From assembly GCA_017408185.1 (NCBI GenBank), contig JAFQVE010000552.1:1-7743 (forward strand): a stretch of 7,743 bases of DNA. Reading direction: 5' to 3'. Positions 1 through 6,090 of this stretch are shown one piece after another (within the stretch, counting starts at the first letter, position 1; the number at the start of each line of letters is the position of its first letter). The translations under genes and the position numbers were made by a program. The notes beneath the pieces are model-generated. The model made no database searches, was not told the DNA's origin, and saw only the letters and a list, made by a program, of their open reading frames with translations. Source of the stretch: Oscillospiraceae bacterium (GTDB taxonomy: Bacteria > Bacillota_A > Clostridia > Oscillospirales > JAAYXM01).

Positions 1-452
1 AGCAGGAGATATGCAATGCTTCCTCCGATAAGCGTTCCGCAGATAAAGGACGGAACATAGAAAAGCCAGCTGAGCCCTTCTTTTCCCCAGAAAAAAGTCA
101 TTACGGGATAGGATAAAATTGCGCCGATAATTCCCGTGCCTATTATTTCACCGAGCACGGCAAAGATTATTTTTCCTTTTGAAGCTTTGTAGAAAACACC
201 GGACAGAAATGCGCCGAAAATTGCACCGGTAAGTGCAATCGGGGGGATCGCCATAGTTGCCATACGTATTATTCCGATGACAAACGCGCAAAGAAGTGCA
301 TACCACGGTCCGAGCAGGCACGCGCAGACGATGTTTATAAGGTGCGCCATGGGGCACATTCCCTCAAAGCGCAGGATGGGGGAGATAACAACGCCGAGTG
401 CCACAAGAACAGAGAGCACAATCATTTTTAAAAGAGCCTTAGAGTTATTCAT
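1..452 (-). CDS. thiW: ThiW, ECF transporter S component for a thiamin precursor (partial, 3' end cut by window edge)
   Basis: The minus-strand frame stays open from an ATG at 452-450 to the window edge, giving about 150 residues. It begins MNNSKALLKMIVLSVLVALG and contains the ThiW-like stretches CPMAHLINIVCACLLGPWYA and IPPIALTGAIFGAFLSG. Several hydrophobic membrane segments alternate with short loops, as expected for a small S component. Known ThiW proteins are about 160-170 residues, so only a short C-terminus is missing. In the family, ThiW is thought to bind a thiazole-type thiamin precursor in the membrane and to work with the shared EcfA/EcfA'/EcfT energising module, none of which is seen here. 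The start is supported by GAGG eight bases upstream (minus strand, 464-461). A TPP riboswitch in the leader independently supports a thiamin role. Family assignment is confident from conserved motifs; the exact substrate is inferred from the family. Confidence 0.87.
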   Translation of the reverse strand, partial: MNNSKALLKMIVLSVLVALGVVISPILRFEGMCPMAHLINIVCACLLGPWYALLCAFVIGIIRMATMAIPPIALTGAIFGAFLSGVFYKASKGKIIFAVLGEIIGTGIIGAILSYPVMTFFWGKEGLSWLFYVPSFICGTLIGGSIAYLL

Positions 453-460
453 TTTATTTT

Positions 461-549
461 CCTCGTTTCGTAATTAAATACGAGGCGGTATACCTCGCTC
501 GGTCGAAGCTTAATTGCTTCCTCTCACCCCGAAACACGGGTTCCCTCGC
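461..549 (-). promoter_or_regulatory. Second, half-TPP-aptamer-like leader element with RBS-competing hairpins
   Basis: Reading the minus strand, GGGAACCCG...CGGGGUGAGAGG followed by the GAAGC/GCUUC hairpin matches the P2-P3-J3/2-P3a part of the real TPP aptamer at 662-745. Positions 501-526 and 699-724 agree in 24 of 26 bases. The second half of a TPP aptamer (CCUGAU...GGAUAAUGCC) is absent. In its place are a CGAGG (497-493) and a CCUCG (485-481), which can form a hairpin with a 7-nt loop. The same CCUCG can instead pair with CGAGG at 465-461, which contains the thiW Shine-Dalgarno GAGG, or with GCGAGG at 549-544 in a P1-like closing helix. The repeat and the complementary blocks are seen directly. 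A translational switch is inference, and the ligand, if any, is unknown. It could also be a decayed duplicate aptamer. Confidence 0.55.
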
Positions 550-556
550 AACTTGT

Positions 557-583
557 AAAAAACGTCAAGAGCTCCCTTGCCGT
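557..583 (-). terminator. Second terminator-like hairpin in the thiW leader
   Basis: On the minus strand, ACG-g-CAAGG / GAGC loop / TCTTG-a-CGT forms a stem of about eight pairs with one internal G/A mismatch, followed directly by six T (plus-strand A run 557-562). It lies downstream of the TPP riboswitch terminator and upstream of the half-aptamer element, so a transcript that escapes the first terminator meets this one next. The stem is moderate, so termination strength is uncertain. What would control it is not visible. Confidence 0.5.
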
Positions 584-604
584 CCTGTTTTCTGCCCTCC
601 TTTG

Positions 605-641
605 AAAAATAATAAAAGGACAATCCCGATAAGGACTGTCC
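605..641 (-). terminator. Intrinsic terminator of the TPP riboswitch (expression platform)
   Basis: On the minus strand, GGACAGTCC pairs with GGGATTGTCC around a short TTAT-type loop (stem 641-618), followed by a T-rich tract with one TTTT run and one TTTTT run (617-605). It sits about 20 nt after the aptamer's 3' end and well before thiW. This is the usual arrangement for a TPP riboswitch that stops transcription when TPP is bound. Confidence 0.85.
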
Positions 642-661
642 TAAAAATCAGAGCTTTATAT

Positions 662-745
662 AACTTCCTCCGTTGGCATTATCCAAATCAGGTATAAGGG
701 TCGAAGCTCAATTACTTCCTCTCAGCCTGAAAACAAGCTCCCCTG
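662..745 (-). promoter_or_regulatory. TPP (thiamin pyrophosphate) riboswitch aptamer
   Basis: The minus strand shows the two diagnostic TPP blocks in order. GGGGAGC leads into a short P3 hairpin and then GGCTGAGAGG, which is the J3/2 that stacks on the pyrimidine ring. A GAAG/CTTC P3a insertion follows, then GACCC closing P2. After these come ACCTGAT, GGATAATGCC, and AACGGAGG, which form P4/P5 and bind the pyrophosphate with Mg2+. The P1 pairing is weak by eye, so the outer ends are approximate. In this class TPP binding normally lowers expression, here by favouring the terminator at 605-641. The downstream gene is thiW, a transporter gene often under TPP control. Confidence 0.95.
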
Positions 746-763
746 TATTTAATTGTCGAGAAC

Positions 764-792
764 ATTATAATACTATTTCTTGAAAATTGCAA
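764..792 (-). promoter_or_regulatory. Sigma-A promoter for the TPP riboswitch-thiW transcript
   Basis: The minus strand has TTGCAA (792-787), a 17-bp spacer and a perfect TATAAT (769-764). Transcription would start near 757, just ahead of the TPP aptamer, leaving a leader of about 300 nt before thiW. Confidence 0.8.
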
Positions 793-865: not shown

Positions 866-2404
866 TTGGAGCTTAGTCTTGAAAAGAAGGCAACAAAGCG
901 CCTTGAGTGCGTTTTTTGCGGAAGCAGTCTGCACGAAGAAAATACAGAGATGATTGTACCCGACCACAGCCCCGATATTATGCGGATAGTAAGAGGGAGT
1001 GCGGACGCATTTTTAAGGGACAAGAGTGCGCGTGACGGAAAAATTGACGTTGGCGGAAACATAAAGGGAACCGTGCTTTACATAGCCGAAGGGGAGAAAA
1101 AAGTGAGAAAGCTTGATGTTCTGATGCCCTTTGCGTATGTTATCGATGCACCGGGCGTGAGTGACTCATCAAGGATAAGCGCGAATGTTTTCCTGCGCTC
1201 GTTTGATGTGCGCGAAATAAATCCGCGGAAAATTTCTGTCCGTGCAAATGCAGAGCTTTCCGTTTGTGCTTACGGCGAGCGGGAAATTTCATTCTGCCAT
1301 GATATTACGGAGGGCGAGGAGCTTGGGGTCTGCACGAAAAAAAGCACGGTTTCGATGTATCATCCGCAGAATTTCCGTGAAAAGGGATTTACTGTAAGTG
1401 ATGATATAGAGCTTTCTTCCGCAGAAAGCGGGATGAGCGGACTTCTCACATCTTCTGCAGCTCTGAAGGTTACAGATACAAAGATTATCGGAAACAAGAC
1501 CATTTTAAAGGGAAATGCATATATAAGCTATGTGTACGAAAACGAGGACGGATCAATCGGCTGCGGAGAATATGAGCTTCCGTTTTCTCAGATAATCGAT
1601 GTTGAAGGGATGAATGAGGAAAATGACCTTAAAACAGCTCTTTCCGTCACAGGATTTGAGCTTGAACCGCAGTATGACGCAGCAGGAAAGGCGCATTATA
1701 TGACGGTGAGCATTGCAGCAGATGCAACAGTTCTTGTGCTGTCGCGTGAAACCGTTGCGATTGTGGATGATGTTTACAGCACAAAGCTTCCTCTTGATGT
1801 TCGCCGCTGCGCAGAAAAGTGCTCGTCCCTGTGCGCAAAGCCGGAAAAGCGCGTGGCGGCAACCGAAAGCATTGAGGCGGGAACCGGCGTAAAGAGTGTT
1901 ATTGACGTAAACGTGAGCATTATGCCGCCGTCACGCCGCAGGGATGAAGGCGGCGAGGTGCTTTGCAGTGATGCTTCAATAACCGTTATGTATATTGGAG
2001 AGGATGACGGTATATACAATGCATCGCGCAGGAGCATCGTTGTATGCCCGATGCCTCTGGATAATGCGCATAAATACGATGCAAGAGTGTCCGTTTCATC
2101 CAAAAGCGCATCCGTAGGTGCATCCGGTGAGATAAATGTCCGCTTTTTTACGGACTTTGAGATAACAGAAACAGAAGAAATTGCCGTTCCGGTAATTTCG
2201 GAGATATTCGCTGATGCGGAAACGGTGCGAGATACCGACAGTACCCCAAGCGTTATAGTGAAGCGACTTGCGCGGGAGTGCGACATCTGGTCGCTTGCAA
2301 AGGAATACAGAACAACCGTCGGAGAAATAAAGCTTGCCAACGATATTACGGATGACGTAACTTTATCGAGAGGAAGAATGGTTATTATCCCGAAAAAAAG
2401 ATAA
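866..2404 (+). CDS. sipL: SipL-like spore morphogenesis protein, SPOCS (DUF3794) repeats plus C-terminal LysM
   Basis: This 512-residue soluble protein has no signal peptide or membrane segment. Residues ~20-440 are beta-rich and carry SPOCS/DUF3794-type repeats, with the characteristic VPDHSPDIMRIV near residue 31. Residues ~461-512 form a LysM domain (...CDIWSLAKEYRTTVGEIK...GRMVIIPKKR). This order and length match C. difficile SipL (about 520 residues), a mother-cell protein that binds SpoIVA through its LysM domain and is needed to assemble the spore coat around the forespore. Bacillus SpoVID is the functional counterpart. The start is TTG at 866, supported by AAGGAG seven bases upstream; no ATG lies between. 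The gene is monocistronic, with its own promoter and a strong terminator 13 bases after its TAA. Family assignment is firm; the SpoIVA-binding role is transferred from the homologue. Confidence 0.9.
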   Translation: MELSLEKKATKRLECVFCGSSLHEENTEMIVPDHSPDIMRIVRGSADAFLRDKSARDGKIDVGGNIKGTVLYIAEGEKKVRKLDVLMPFAYVIDAPGVSDSSRISANVFLRSFDVREINPRKISVRANAELSVCAYGEREISFCHDITEGEELGVCTKKSTVSMYHPQNFREKGFTVSDDIELSSAESGMSGLLTSSAALKVTDTKIIGNKTILKGNAYISYVYENEDGSIGCGEYELPFSQIIDVEGMNEENDLKTALSVTGFELEPQYDAAGKAHYMTVSIAADATVLVLSRETVAIVDDVYSTKLPLDVRRCAEKCSSLCAKPEKRVAATESIEAGTGVKSVIDVNVSIMPPSRRRDEGGEVLCSDASITVMYIGEDDGIYNASRRSIVVCPMPLDNAHKYDARVSVSSKSASVGASGEINVRFFTDFEITETEEIAVPVISEIFADAETVRDTDSTPSVIVKRLARECDIWSLAKEYRTTVGEIKLANDITDDVTLSRGRMVIIPKKR

Positions 2405-2416
2405 AGCGGATAAGTG

Positions 2417-2453
2417 AAAAAACAGATGGAGCATTTTGCTTCATCTGTTTTTT
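2417..2453 (+). terminator. Terminator after sipL
   Basis: AAAAAACAGATG pairs perfectly with CATCTGTTTTTT, with inner AGC/GCT pairs and a 5-nt loop, giving a stem of about 16 bp with a U tract in the 3' arm. It is symmetrical enough to work in both directions. Its core (GATGGAGCATTTTGCTTCATC, one base longer than the related minus-strand core) recurs in the hairpin at 7429-7458. Confidence 0.9.
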
Positions 2454-2454
2454 C

Positions 2455-2483
2455 TTGAACAGAAAAAGCGTTTGTGGTACAAT
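2455..2483 (+). promoter_or_regulatory. Sigma-A promoter of the two-component operon
   Basis: TTGAAC (2455-2460), a 17-bp spacer and TACAAT (2478-2483) form a good vegetative promoter placed right after the sipL terminator. The roughly 40-nt leader contains a small inverted repeat, AGTAT-AACCG-ATACT (2498-2512), just before the GGAGG ribosome binding site at 2519-2523. I see no copy of the 4326-4343 direct repeat here, so autoregulation is not evident. Confidence 0.8.
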
Positions 2484-2528
2484 AAATATAAAAAGTAAGT
2501 ATAACCGATACTATTTGCGGAGGTCCGT

Positions 2529-3596
2529 ATGAAAAAAAGCTCCCGATATATAAAAGACGTATTAATAATGTCAATTTTGCTTGGTATAGCGTTTGGGATA
2601 AGCCTATTGTTCCAATATGTGTTTGAGGTTCATGAGCATGTTACCACAATATTTGTTTTTGCCGTTTTTCTTATATCTTTATTTACCAACGGTTATGTGT
2701 ATGGTATTTTATCTGCATTTGCGGGAACTATTGCCGTTAATTATGCTTTTACGTTTCCGTATTTTGCGCTCAATTTTACAATACCGGTAAATCTCATTTC
2801 CGGTATGATTATGATTGCCGTTGCTGTTCTTACAAGTGCGCTGACAACAAAATTAAAGCGTCATGAAGCAATGAAAGCGGAAAGCGAAAAAGAACGAATG
2901 CGCGCAAATCTCCTGCGAGCAGTTTCTCACGATCTGAGAACACCGCTCACAACTATTTACGGATCAAGCACAACGCTTCTTGAAAACAACGAAGTTATGA
3001 CGGCGGAGCAAAAAGAAAAGATTATAACGGGCATAAAAGAGGATTCTGAGTGGCTTGTCCGTATGGTTGAAAATTTGCTTTCAATTACCGGGATTGACAG
3101 CGGACAGATAAAAATAATAAAAACATCTACTGTTCTTGATGAGCTTATTGACTCGGTAGTGCTGAAATTCAAAAAACGTTATCCGGCGCAAAAGGTTGAA
3201 ATAAAGCTTCCCGAAGATGTGACAATTATTCCGATGGATGCAATTCTGATTGAACAGGTAATTATTAATATTCTTGAAAATGCGGTACAGCACGCAGAGG
3301 GAATGACCGGGCTTTTTCTTCGGGTGTCTGTTGTCGGGAACAGTGCCGTTTTCGAGATTGAGGATAACGGGTGCGGTATAAATCCGAAACGCCTTGAAAC
3401 GTTATTTACCGGATATTACACCTCGGAGAATGATGTTGCAGACGGCAAGAAGAGAAATGCAGGGATAGGTCTGTCTTTGTGTGCGACAATCATTAAGGCG
3501 CATGGCGGTGACATAAAAGCTGAAAACAAAAAAACAGGAGGTGCGGTGTTCCGTTTTTGCCTAGATACGGAGAGAATAAACTATGATACAGAATAA
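2529..3596 (+). CDS. Sensor histidine kinase, KdpD-like membrane and kinase core without the cytoplasmic N-terminal sensor
   Basis: This 355-residue protein has four close-packed membrane helices at about residues 10-30, 38-55, 57-78 and 86-107, resembling the DUF4118 membrane domain of KdpD. A basic linker is followed by a HisKA dimerisation domain (VSHDLRTPLTTIYGSS; predicted phospho-acceptor His134) and an HATPase_c domain (N box with Asn251, G1 DNGCGI at 279-284, G2 GIGLSL at 312-317). Full KdpD has about 900 residues, with N-terminal KdpD and universal-stress domains plus a GAF domain, all absent here. There is almost no extracytoplasmic loop, so sensing is probably intramembrane or through a partner. 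The start is ATG after GGAGG at a 5-base spacing. The gene overlaps the regulator gene by 14 bases, so the two are translationally coupled. No kdpFABC genes are in view, so a potassium role should not be assumed. Confidence 0.88.
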   Translation: MKKSSRYIKDVLIMSILLGIAFGISLLFQYVFEVHEHVTTIFVFAVFLISLFTNGYVYGILSAFAGTIAVNYAFTFPYFALNFTIPVNLISGMIMIAVAVLTSALTTKLKRHEAMKAESEKERMRANLLRAVSHDLRTPLTTIYGSSTTLLENNEVMTAEQKEKIITGIKEDSEWLVRMVENLLSITGIDSGQIKIIKTSTVLDELIDSVVLKFKKRYPAQKVEIKLPEDVTIIPMDAILIEQVIINILENAVQHAEGMTGLFLRVSVVGNSAVFEIEDNGCGINPKRLETLFTGYYTSENDVADGKKRNAGIGLSLCATIIKAHGGDIKAENKKTGGAVFRFCLDTERINYDTE

Positions 3597-4287
3597 GTAT
3601 AAGATTCTTCTCGTTGAGGATGAGGATAACATCCGAAACCTCGTTGCAACAATGCTTGACACGGCGGGATATCAGACAATTCTCGCAAGCTCCTGTTCCG
3701 CTGCAAAAACGCTGTTCGCCTCTCACATACCGGACCTTATCATTTTGGATCTCGGGCTTCCGGATATGGACGGAGTAAATTTGCTTGATTATGTACGCAA
3801 GGATTCTTTAACCCCTGTTATTGTATTATCGGCACGGACGAATGAAACTGACAAAATCACTGCACTGGACAGGGGAGCAAACGACTATGTCACTAAGCCT
3901 TTTGGCTCCGGAGAGCTTCTTGCGAGGGTGAGAGCCGCTCTTCGCAACCATCGCTTCAGTGCTGATGAGGGGCGGCTGCCCGGCGGAAGATTTATCCTTA
4001 AAGATTTGGAAATAGACTATGATGCCCGACGGATATTTTTGAGAGGCGAGGAGATCCGTCTTACACAAACGGAATACAACATTGTGGCGCTTCTTTCTGA
4101 AAACTGCGGTAAAATGATGACCTATTCCGCTATCATAAAAGCTATTTGGGGCGGATCTGCTCAGGAAGGAAGCATCAAGAAATTACAGGTGAATATGGCG
4201 AATATCCGAAAAAAGATTGGCGACAAACCGGGAGAGCAGAACTATATAGCAAACGAACTCGGAGTTGGGTATCGTTTAAATTCATAA
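3583..4287 (+). CDS. OmpR/PhoB-family response regulator (KdpE-like)
   Basis: This 234-residue regulator has an N-terminal receiver domain with acidic pocket Glu12/Asp13, phospho-acceptor Asp56 (LIILDLGLPDMDG), Ser83 and Lys105 (TKPF), so all key residues are present. A C-terminal winged-helix DNA-binding domain occupies about residues 130-232 (RLTQTEYNIVALL; VNMANIRKKIGDKP; GVGYRL). It starts inside the kinase gene, with GGAGAG eight bases upstream of its ATG. It is the expected partner of the kinase. OmpR-family regulators bind tandem direct repeats with an 11-bp period, and exactly such a site lies 39 bp after its stop codon in front of the phosphate transporter gene, which makes that operon the likely target. 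The receiver and wing resemble KdpE, but the target evidence points to phosphate or anion transport. The target is inference. Confidence 0.9.
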   Translation: MIQNKYKILLVEDEDNIRNLVATMLDTAGYQTILASSCSAAKTLFASHIPDLIILDLGLPDMDGVNLLDYVRKDSLTPVIVLSARTNETDKITALDRGANDYVTKPFGSGELLARVRAALRNHRFSADEGRLPGGRFILKDLEIDYDARRIFLRGEEIRLTQTEYNIVALLSENCGKMMTYSAIIKAIWGGSAQEGSIKKLQVNMANIRKKIGDKPGEQNYIANELGVGYRLNS

Positions 4288-4325
4288 AAAGGTATTAGAG
4301 CAGTAATTTGCTCTGATGCCTTTTT
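4286..4325 (+). terminator. Terminator after the response regulator gene
   Basis: AAAAAGG-TAT-t-AGAGCA, a 6-nt loop (GTAATT), then TGCTCT-g-ATG-CC-TTTTT form a stem of about 11 pairs ending in five T, starting inside the TAA stop codon. The T tract runs directly into the first half of the downstream tandem repeat, so termination and the transporter promoter are tightly packed. Confidence 0.85.
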
Positions 4326-4359
4326 CTTTACCGTATCTTTACCGTAAAAATGTTATAAT
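4326..4359 (+). promoter_or_regulatory. Activator-dependent promoter with PhoB-box-like direct repeat
   Basis: CTTTACC (4326-4332), a 4-bp gap and CTTTACC (4337-4343) are followed after exactly 10 bp by TATAAT (4354-4359). The identity extends to CTTTACCGTA twice, at an 11-bp period. No -35 hexamer is present at the 17-bp position (CCGTAT). The E. coli Pho box has the same geometry: two 7-bp repeats, a 4-bp AT-rich gap, then 10 bp to the -10. B. subtilis PhoP sites (TTAACA-like, 11-bp period) are also similar. Transcription would start near 4366. The geometry is seen directly; the bound regulator is inferred to be the adjacent OmpR/PhoB-family protein. Confidence 0.75.
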
Positions 4360-4407
4360 AAACAGAATATTGTGATTAGTTGTAGCATTATGGAAAGGAG
4401 AATGGAT

Positions 4408-6090
4408 ATGCTGTCAACAGAAGAAATAATGCAGCTTATAGGCAGCCTTATATGGTTGCTTGCGGGTGTCGGCGTGTTTATTGTCGGTATGAATTTCATG
4501 AGCGAGGCTCTTGAAAAAAGCGCCGGCGAAGGAATGAAGAAGATGCTCGGCAGAATCAGTAATAACCGTTTCTCGGGCGTTGGTATCGGGGCAGGAGTTA
4601 CTGCCATCATCCAAAGCTCGTCGGCAACCTCGGTTATGGTTATCGGCTTGGTTAATGCGGGAGTTATGACCCTTATGCAGGCGACTCCTATCATTATGGG
4701 TGCGAATATCGGCACAACGATAACCGGCGTTTTAGTGGCGCTTAAAAATGATTACTTCAATATGCTGATGTACCTGTCTGCCTTTGCCGGTGTTATGATG
4801 GGGTTTTTCAAAAAAGAAAAGATAAAAATTGCAGGGCTTTTATGCAGCGGTCTTGGATTAATATTTGTAGGCTTGAATGTAATGAGCAGTGAGCAGGCGT
4901 TTGGAAATCCGCTGGTCGAGGCTATGTTTCAGGGGATTTTTGCGGTTATAGATTTCCCGCTGCTGCTTATTTTGGTCGGTGTGATTTTTACCGCACTTAT
5001 CCAGAGCTCATCGGCGGCAACCGGCGTGGTCATCACAATGGTCGGAACCGGTGTGCTCCCGCTCGATTTTGCTTTGTTTATCGTGCTTGGTGCAAATATC
5101 GGAACCTGCGTCACGGCGCTTCTTGCATCTGTCGGCGCAAATGCAAACTCAAAGCGTGTTGCGCTCATTCATTTTACTTTTAACGTTATAGGCACTGTCA
5201 TATTTACCGCTATTGTATGGATATTCAGAGAACCGGTGGTAAATCTGCTCGTTTCAATGTTCCCGGGCAGCGATTCTATGTCACTGCAGATGCGCGTATC
5301 TGTATTCCACGTTATTTTCAACGTTACAACAACGTGTGTTCTCTTGCCGTTCGTTTCTCAGCTTGTCAGCTATTCCTGCAAGGTTATAAAGGATAAAAAA
5401 GCTGATGAAAACGCTCTTGTGCTCAGATATGTTGATGACAGACTTCTCACAATGCCTACGGTCGCACTTATGCAGGTGAAAAAGGAAATGGATTATATGT
5501 TTGCACTGGTTGAAGAAAACATTTCCCTCTCCTTTGCCGCAATGAAAACGGAGGATATAGGAAATGGCGATAAAATTATTGCCAACGAAGCTGTTATAGA
5601 TTTTACAAACAGCACATTGACGCGTTTCCTTATAAAGCTTTCTTCTGTGGTTGAGCAAAGTGATGAGCTTGTTATCGGATCGTATTTTCACGTACTGAAT
5701 GACCTTGAGCGTATTGGTGACCACGCCGAGAATTTCTATGAAATTGCAGCGGCAATGTCTGCGAAAAAAATAGAGTTCTCTGCAAATGCATTGGAGGACA
5801 TTAAGAAAATGTGCGGTAAGGTTATACGAATGCTTGATATTTCAAAGGATGCTTTTGACAATTTGAACAAAACAGAATTGCCGGAGCTGGAAGTACTCGA
5901 GGATGAAATAGACGGAATGAAAAAAAGGCTTACGGCAAGCCACTTTGCCCGCCTTGCCGACGGTGACTGCAGTATGGACGTCAGCCCGTATTATTCTTCT
6001 GCCATCGCAGGGCTTGAGCGCGTGGCAGACCATCTTGTCAATATAGGATTCAGTATTGTAAATCCTGTTGGTTCTCAAAAAGAAAATTAA
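4408..6090 (+). CDS. Na+/phosphate symporter of the NptA family with C-terminal PhoU-like domain
   Basis: This 560-residue protein has an N-terminal membrane half (about residues 10-325) made of two inverted Na/Pi-cotransporter repeats, each with a QSSSA signature (residues 69-73 and 199-203) and a GANIGT motif (98-103 and 228-233). These motifs are characteristic of SLC34/NptA transporters that import phosphate with sodium. The cytoplasmic half (about 340-550) is helical and PhoU-like, with NDLERIGDHAEN (431-442) and AGLERVADHLVNI (534-546). This is the usual architecture of bacterial NptA/YjbB-like proteins. I chose ATG 4408 because AAGGAG lies seven bases upstream. An upstream in-frame GTG at 4372 would add 12 residues but lacks a ribosome site and sits only about 6 bases after the expected transcription start. 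The PhoB-box-like promoter fits a phosphate role. Export rather than import has been reported for some relatives, so direction is uncertain. Confidence 0.9.
   Translation: MLSTEEIMQLIGSLIWLLAGVGVFIVGMNFMSEALEKSAGEGMKKMLGRISNNRFSGVGIGAGVTAIIQSSSATSVMVIGLVNAGVMTLMQATPIIMGANIGTTITGVLVALKNDYFNMLMYLSAFAGVMMGFFKKEKIKIAGLLCSGLGLIFVGLNVMSSEQAFGNPLVEAMFQGIFAVIDFPLLLILVGVIFTALIQSSSAATGVVITMVGTGVLPLDFALFIVLGANIGTCVTALLASVGANANSKRVALIHFTFNVIGTVIFTAIVWIFREPVVNLLVSMFPGSDSMSLQMRVSVFHVIFNVTTTCVLLPFVSQLVSYSCKVIKDKKADENALVLRYVDDRLLTMPTVALMQVKKEMDYMFALVEENISLSFAAMKTEDIGNGDKIIANEAVIDFTNSTLTRFLIKLSSVVEQSDELVIGSYFHVLNDLERIGDHAENFYEIAAAMSAKKIEFSANALEDIKKMCGKVIRMLDISKDAFDNLNKTELPELEVLEDEIDGMKKRLTASHFARLADGDCSMDVSPYYSSAIAGLERVADHLVNIGFSIVNPVGSQKEN

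Follow-up and report, generated by a model that had tools for sequence, protein, structure and literature searches.

The thiW leader of an Oscillospiraceae bacterium carries, behind a complete TPP riboswitch, a second structured RNA element that is conserved among relatives, covaries in its stems, is associated with thiamin genes, and lacks the pyrophosphate arm of the TPP aptamer. It probably represents a clostridial class of cis-regulatory RNA, most likely a riboswitch that is derived from or resembles the TPP riboswitch and acts as an OFF switch, with thiamin or TMP as the favoured ligand; its function, sign, and ligand are what we infer from sequence and predicted structure. The features general to riboswitches were found here, namely a conserved structured leader RNA, a gene-related location, and a predicted mutually exclusive platform.

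Architecture of the thiW leader

The stretch of DNA analysed (hereafter, the window) comprises 7,743 nt on the forward strand of contig JAFQVE010000552.1, and the leader is read on its minus strand, as are all features in this paragraph. The first regulator is a TPP riboswitch aptamer (648–754; RF00059, 67.2 bits in an Rfam scan of the window), behind which a terminator-like hairpin with a U-rich run can be read from the sequence (611–641), the hairpin also accounting for a sub-threshold Rfam match to sbrA at 659–611. The second element occupies 500–587 as a conserved aptamer-like region, from P0 through P3a and CGACCG, delimited by alignments A2 and A3 and scoring 89.4 and 91.2 bits with R1 and R2, respectively, models that were built from its relatives. 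It opens with a new 5′ hairpin, P0 (560–585, GAGC loop at 574–571), followed by a conserved GCGAGGGAA strand (541–549) that is seen in the alignment, contains the GG of the P2 5′ side, and is part of the core pattern by which members were collected. Next come the P3 hairpin CCCG-UGUUU-CGGG (528–540), the alignment-supported GUGAGA (522–527), which is the counterpart of the CUGAGA at the pyrimidine site of TPP riboswitches, and the P3a hairpin (505–520). In the minimum free energy fold, a platform hairpin, GCGAGG/CCUCGU (480–498), occupies the place of TPP P4/P5, and duplex prediction puts a P1 3′ strand (460–469) over the thiW Shine-Dalgarno sequence (SD; GAGG, 464–461), pairing with 570–567 and 564–559. 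The gene next after the second copy is thiW, encoding an ECF transporter S component (1–452, start codon at 452, cut at the window end; TIGR02359, 132.8 bits).

A first-pass annotation of this DNA had described a full TPP aptamer followed by a half aptamer, and the sequence bears out its main observations. By direct comparison, positions 724–699 and 526–501 of the minus strand are identical at 24 of 26 bases, and one of the two mismatches, U-G to C-G, leaves pairing in the P3a stem intact. The first copy is a full TPP riboswitch, the second has no pyrophosphate arm, and the P3 (CCCG/CGGG), GUGAGA, P3a, and CGAGG/CCUCG hairpin of the second copy are as described. The extent that it had given, 461–549, proved too narrow, since the element begins approximately 40 nt further upstream, at 587, and includes the conserved 5′ hairpin that had been missed. 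Likewise, the CGAGG/CCUCG arm is indeed a hairpin at the P4/P5 place, but among relatives it is a variable platform hairpin and not part of the conserved core. The second copy had no Rfam match in the window at E ≤ 10, and the fold stability of its stretch was not unusual (z −0.88; 37 of 200 shuffles equally good), a measure that is uninformative here.

Elsewhere in the window, the plus strand encodes a SipL/SPOCS-LysM spore-type protein, a DUF4118 histidine kinase with a response regulator, and a Na/Pi cotransporter with PhoU domains (866–6090). These are followed by two adjacent open reading frames of the CitMHS transporter family (PF03600; 6106–6912 and 6949–7380), arranged as if they were one frame-broken gene.

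Conserved structure and covariation

Alignment A2 contained 72 copies (the window and 71 loci), with L064, L065, L069, L070, and L072 omitted alongside the span-identical copies L040, L073, L079, and L080, while alignment A3 omitted L175, L177, and near-identical copies. The order in the 72-copy alignment was P0 with its GAGC loop, a linker, GCGA(U)GGGAA, P3 with the loop UGUUU, GUGAGA, P3a, and CGACCG, and RNAalifold predicted three hairpins, in which 97.7% of the alignment cells were paired. Across the 72 sequences, 15 of the 18 stem pairs had changed on both sides (0 of 500 shuffles), comprising seven of nine pairs in P0, three of four in P3, and all five in P3a. The covariation score was 0.610, versus at most 0.157 for slid versions, and four of the five covariation measures beat all 500 shuffles, while the weaker fifth, further pair types, was reached by 12 of them. 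These compensatory changes indicate that the retained pyrimidine half has been kept by selection, as had been suggested from the window; both they and the conservation in relatives were found on checking, and the half-aptamer reading stands.

Besides the P0 loop GAGC, the P3 loop letters GUGUU were conserved. Both loops are nearly invariant; a kissing contact between the P0 loop GAGC and the P3 loop (GUUU or GUUC) was considered as a possibility. UGAGAG was present in at least 131 of 134 loci and CGAGAG in one, and the letter before UGAGA was mostly G (114/134); because the collecting pattern demands [UC]GAGAG and GGGA, the constancy of those letters is partly by construction.

Distribution and associated genes

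The core pattern was present in 79 of 80 fetched thiW leaders, these being the best 80 of 469 ThiW relatives, taken from one-per-species genomes; at the exception, L069, the contig extends only 115 nt upstream, and R1 had no match in that genome. In total, 134 loci carried the core, with no genome repeated and 127 distinct sequences, a set that excludes L081–L113 and L137 (genomes already included), L133, which is a TPP aptamer, and L156, which a contig end truncates. L153 misses the core pattern yet scores 85.5 bits with R2. R1 matched 34 of the 35 genomes behind chosen loci and, among 391 genomes drawn evenly at the level of Clostridia, 27 at E ≤ 1e-4, 18 of which carry the element (≥56 bits) and nine a TPP aptamer only (34–38 bits), the TPP P4/P5 signature being present in all nine of the latter. 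In two order-level samples, 25 and 22 of 295 genomes each matched at E ≤ 1e-6; matches were also obtained for two of nine genomes in a small order and for 3 of 299 in a phylum-level sample. Stricter filters, by which weak matches were lost, applied to the larger genome samples. The 108 distinct leaders fell into two types: type 1, the window's clade (82/108), in which P1 extends toward the ribosome site of thiW, and type 2 (26/108), which has a P1 like ACAGCG/CGCUGU and a plain stem at the P4 place.

The first thi-type gene downstream was thiW at 126 of the 134 loci, thiM at two, and an ABC binding protein at two, while none was found at four, in a search that covered thiW, thiM, thiE, and one binding-protein query; two of these four (L158 and L179) have less than 280 nt downstream. 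A thiM match followed thiW in 112 of the 126. The downstream families were thus ThiW, ThiM, ThiE, and a phosphonate-type substrate-binding lipoprotein, and thiW, thiM, and the binding-protein genes all fit thiamin salvage. The lipoprotein had a weak, sub-threshold match to a mycoplasma thiamine-pyrophosphate lipoprotein model (E = 4.5e-4). Its gene, encoding a phosphonate-type ABC substrate-binding lipoprotein (PF12974), lies at 603–1667 behind the L154 copy (354–463), while the L157 copy (1504–1614) precedes a binding-lipoprotein reading frame ending at 2795, with an ATPase-like reading frame next; possibly, these binding-protein genes belong to a thiamin-related importer.

At L142, thiC (3–779, minus strand, cut) comes after thiW behind the element, and pyrimidine synthesis may therefore share its control there. 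Copies near 1500–1600 on the minus strand at L163, L179, and L180 were followed by no match to thiW, thiM, thiE, or the binding protein (only 274 nt lie downstream at L179). In two genomes (L158/L179 and L162/L180) the gene-less copy is a second copy, and such copies are possibly remnants or small transcripts.

Relationship to the TPP riboswitch

In TPP riboswitches, UGAGA holds the pyrimidine ring and the P4/P5 of the pyrophosphate arm carries the signature CUGAU..GGNUAAU, the latter also being seen in the Rfam match to the window's TPP riboswitch. This signature was found 3′ of the element in none of the 134 loci (within 160 nt), whereas it occurred within 450 nt on the 5′ side in 91 of 134. 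The placement between a TPP riboswitch and thiW, noted in the first-pass annotation, recurs in the relatives as it does in the window: cmscan recovered a TPP riboswitch next to the element at 11 of 12 loci (below the gathering score at L006 and L021, none at L071) and at 14 of 20 type-2 loci, with none adjacent at L117, L120, L122, L123, L154 (where the available upstream sequence is only approximately 350 nt long), and L157. Copies of this last kind indicate that the element is independent of a TPP neighbour. Additionally, three regulators stand in a row in 14 type-1 leaders and one type-2 leader, with two TPP signatures before the element (L019, L136, and others).

Models derived from relatives of the second element found the window's TPP aptamer, R1 with 28.2 bits (E = 3.9e-4) and R2 with 32.9 bits (E = 4.6e-6; both E values are rough), so the likeness of the two copies goes beyond chance. 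R1 also matched TPP aptamers nearby, with a top score of 46.3 bits at L042, and in the two cases displayed it aligned them through GGGA, P3 with GUGUU, UGAGA, P3a, and GACCG. Nevertheless, Rfam 15 placed no family on the element in 33 sources (the window at E ≤ 10, 12 loci at E ≤ 0.5, 20 loci at E ≤ 1), and RF00059 failed to match it there though it matched the neighbouring TPP aptamers. The pyrimidine arm (P2, P3, UGAGA junction) and the closing helix P1 are present, the latter weaker in type 1, while the P4/P5 signature and a model match are absent, and we therefore file the element as a TPP-related candidate class and not as a TPP riboswitch. We infer descent from TPP aptamers; the element is at least built like a TPP riboswitch.

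The close match between the window's two copies had also raised the idea of a decaying or recent duplicate. Among the 84 leaders with both aptamers, P3a similarity was 0.738 within leaders versus 0.733 between them (60 of 300 shuffles as high), so that the 24 of 26 in the window lies near the top of ordinary scatter and does not mark a recent copy. Recent duplication is ruled out by this absence of excess similarity. We also dropped a reading of the P3a junction as a k-junction: in the part of PMC10573300 consulted, two ligand-holding arms radiate from the TPP k-junction, which could not be tied to P3a.

Closing helix and expression platforms

P1 pairing was matched by 0 of 1000 shuffles in type 1 and by 1 of 1000 in type 2 (108 distinct leaders). 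Specifically, the strand before GCGA pairs in type 2 with a strand that follows the stem at the P4 place (ungapped test, 0 of 500 partner shuffles as high), and A-U, U-A, G-C, and C-G were all found at one P1 position; at several loci (e.g., L135, L154, L155, and L157) the best ungapped partner lay away from P1. A script found terminators in 16 loci, positioned downstream of P3a and P1, with antiterminators averaging −15.4 kcal/mol versus −10.5 kcal/mol with swapped partners (0/2000). The antiterminator 5′ strand entered or passed the P1 3′ strand in 11 of the 16 and lay inside the P1-closed loop in five. Four terminator picks were doubtful (L118, L119, L173, and L174); the result was 0 of 2000 without them (12 loci) and 0 of 2000 without close kin (8 loci), bearing in mind that shared ancestry is not fully removed in partner-shuffle tests.

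In 21 translational type-2 leaders, a helix that joins the segment preceding the P1 3′ strand to a CGUUUCYC-like strand following it covaries (0/2000), and in many of these leaders the CGUUUCYC-like strand can base-pair with the SD. In type 1, pairing of the linker with the sequence immediately ahead of the SD was matched by 1 of 1000 shuffles, and coverage of the SD by P1 was only marginally above that of swapped strands (9/200). That the P0 3′ strand pairs directly with the SD was not supported in type 1, such pairing not exceeding chance (169/1000). Antiterminators and anti-SD helices are the customary form of OFF switches, and as those predicted here compete with the aptamer, an OFF sign is predicted. 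The sign is unsure in the window's clade, given the weak SD coverage, the uninvolved P0 3′ strand, and the overlap of the predicted P1 5′ strand with P0 in the window.

Proposed mechanism and ligand

In the mechanism that we favour, the element would keep P1, P2, P3, UGAGA, and P3a, with a variable plain stem replacing P4/P5 and a 5′ hairpin with the GAGC loop added. Ligand binding would stabilize the P1-closed aptamer; in some lineages closed P1 would block the antiterminator and let the terminator form, in others it would free the anti-SD strand, and in the clade of the window, P1 is predicted to place its 3′ strand against the thiW ribosome site. The ligand would lower expression (OFF) and, behind a TPP switch, thiW-thiM would be expressed only if TPP and the second ligand were both low. 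Because thiamin or TMP would best fit an OFF switch that controls thiazole salvage and recognizes the pyrimidine end but not the pyrophosphate, we give that pair roughly even chances of being the ligand. HMP or HMP-PP appears unlikely, as does, to the same degree, some other compound, and HET or HET-P and TPP are each doubtful candidates. The retained pyrimidine-site sequence is no proof of pyrimidine binding.

Alternatively, the element could be another type of sensor for HMP-PP (or HMP), acting as an ON switch that raises thiazole salvage at low TPP when there is ample pyrimidine partner. The sequence of the pyrimidine site is kept, and the parts consulted of PMC6478431 and PMC6429828 place known HMP-PP riboswitches likewise behind TPP and before thiW. 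We nonetheless consider this unlikely, since competition of the predicted antiterminators and anti-SD helices with the aptamer results in OFF, and the aptamer is not embedded in a terminator. The precursor ligand proposed in the first-pass annotation is possible and similarly not favoured by the predicted sign. That sign, together with thiW, thiM, and thiE downstream and, in the part of PMC9481103 consulted, the precedent of tandem TPP-TPP leaders, would suit a feedback sensor of TPP or thiazole (HET, HET-P), either a reduced TPP aptamer that steepens the response or a sensor of the HET-branch product. Such a sensor seems quite unlikely when all 134 loci lack the pyrophosphate site, while the pyrimidine-site sequence, which a thiazole sensor would not need, is kept. 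It is distinctly improbable that the conserved leader structure responds to a protein or some other factor instead of a small molecule: a protein could contact the conserved GAGC and UGUUU loops, yet the layout is common to TPP aptamers and the mutually exclusive platforms, of three kinds, are riboswitch-like. Finally, a functionless TPP aptamer, either decaying or newly duplicated, to which the 24 of 26 common bases and the missing arm in the window might point, is hardly credible and is already refuted for the class by the covariation in 72 sequences and the within-leader comparison, alongside wide conservation and copies that have no adjacent TPP riboswitch.

We propose, tentatively and with less than even confidence, that a new class arose from a TPP riboswitch by discarding the pyrophosphate arm and adding a pocket-reshaping 5′ hairpin, that it senses unphosphorylated thiamin (or TMP), and that it forms a two-input gate with the TPP switch on thiazole salvage. 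If so, this would be a natural change of riboswitch ligand by the swapping of one aptamer half, making the origin of new classes directly testable, and would provide a second sensor in the thiamin-salvage control of gut Clostridia. It would also give the L154/L157 ABC transporter, whose substrate is not known, a thiamin-related substrate candidate.

Comparison with known systems

Within the openly available text searched, no such motif was found, nor was one mentioned in the portions seen of PMC8632094, PMC11109978, and PMC12452182. The TPP riboswitch (RF00059) and the element share the order P1, P2, P3, UGAGA, P3a, the letters GGGA, GUGUU, UGAGAGG, and GACCG in clostridial members, and thiamin genes, with OFF logic predicted likewise for the element. 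They differ in the P4/P5 signature, absent from the element, in the extra 5′ hairpin with its GAGC loop, and in the letter before UGAGA, which is mostly G in the element and C in the TPP riboswitch.

The HMP-PP riboswitch (thiS motif) is described in the part of PMC6478431 consulted as an aptamer embedded in an intrinsic terminator stem with a U run that turns genes on, and it shares with the element the tandem position behind TPP riboswitches and before thiW or thiazole-branch genes. The core of the element, in contrast, forms no terminator, any terminators lie downstream of it, no U run follows the element in the window, and the predicted sign is OFF versus ON. We rejected identity with the thiS motif on this architecture alone. 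Additionally, unpublished work cited in PMC9481103, as far as that text was seen, reports TPP-class RNAs that prefer thiamin or TMP; these resemble the element in possible ligand type and tandem arrangement and are classed as TPP riboswitches, and, described there without sequences, they may overlap with the element class. Tandem TPP leaders of thiW contain more than the known pair of TPP and HMP-PP riboswitches.
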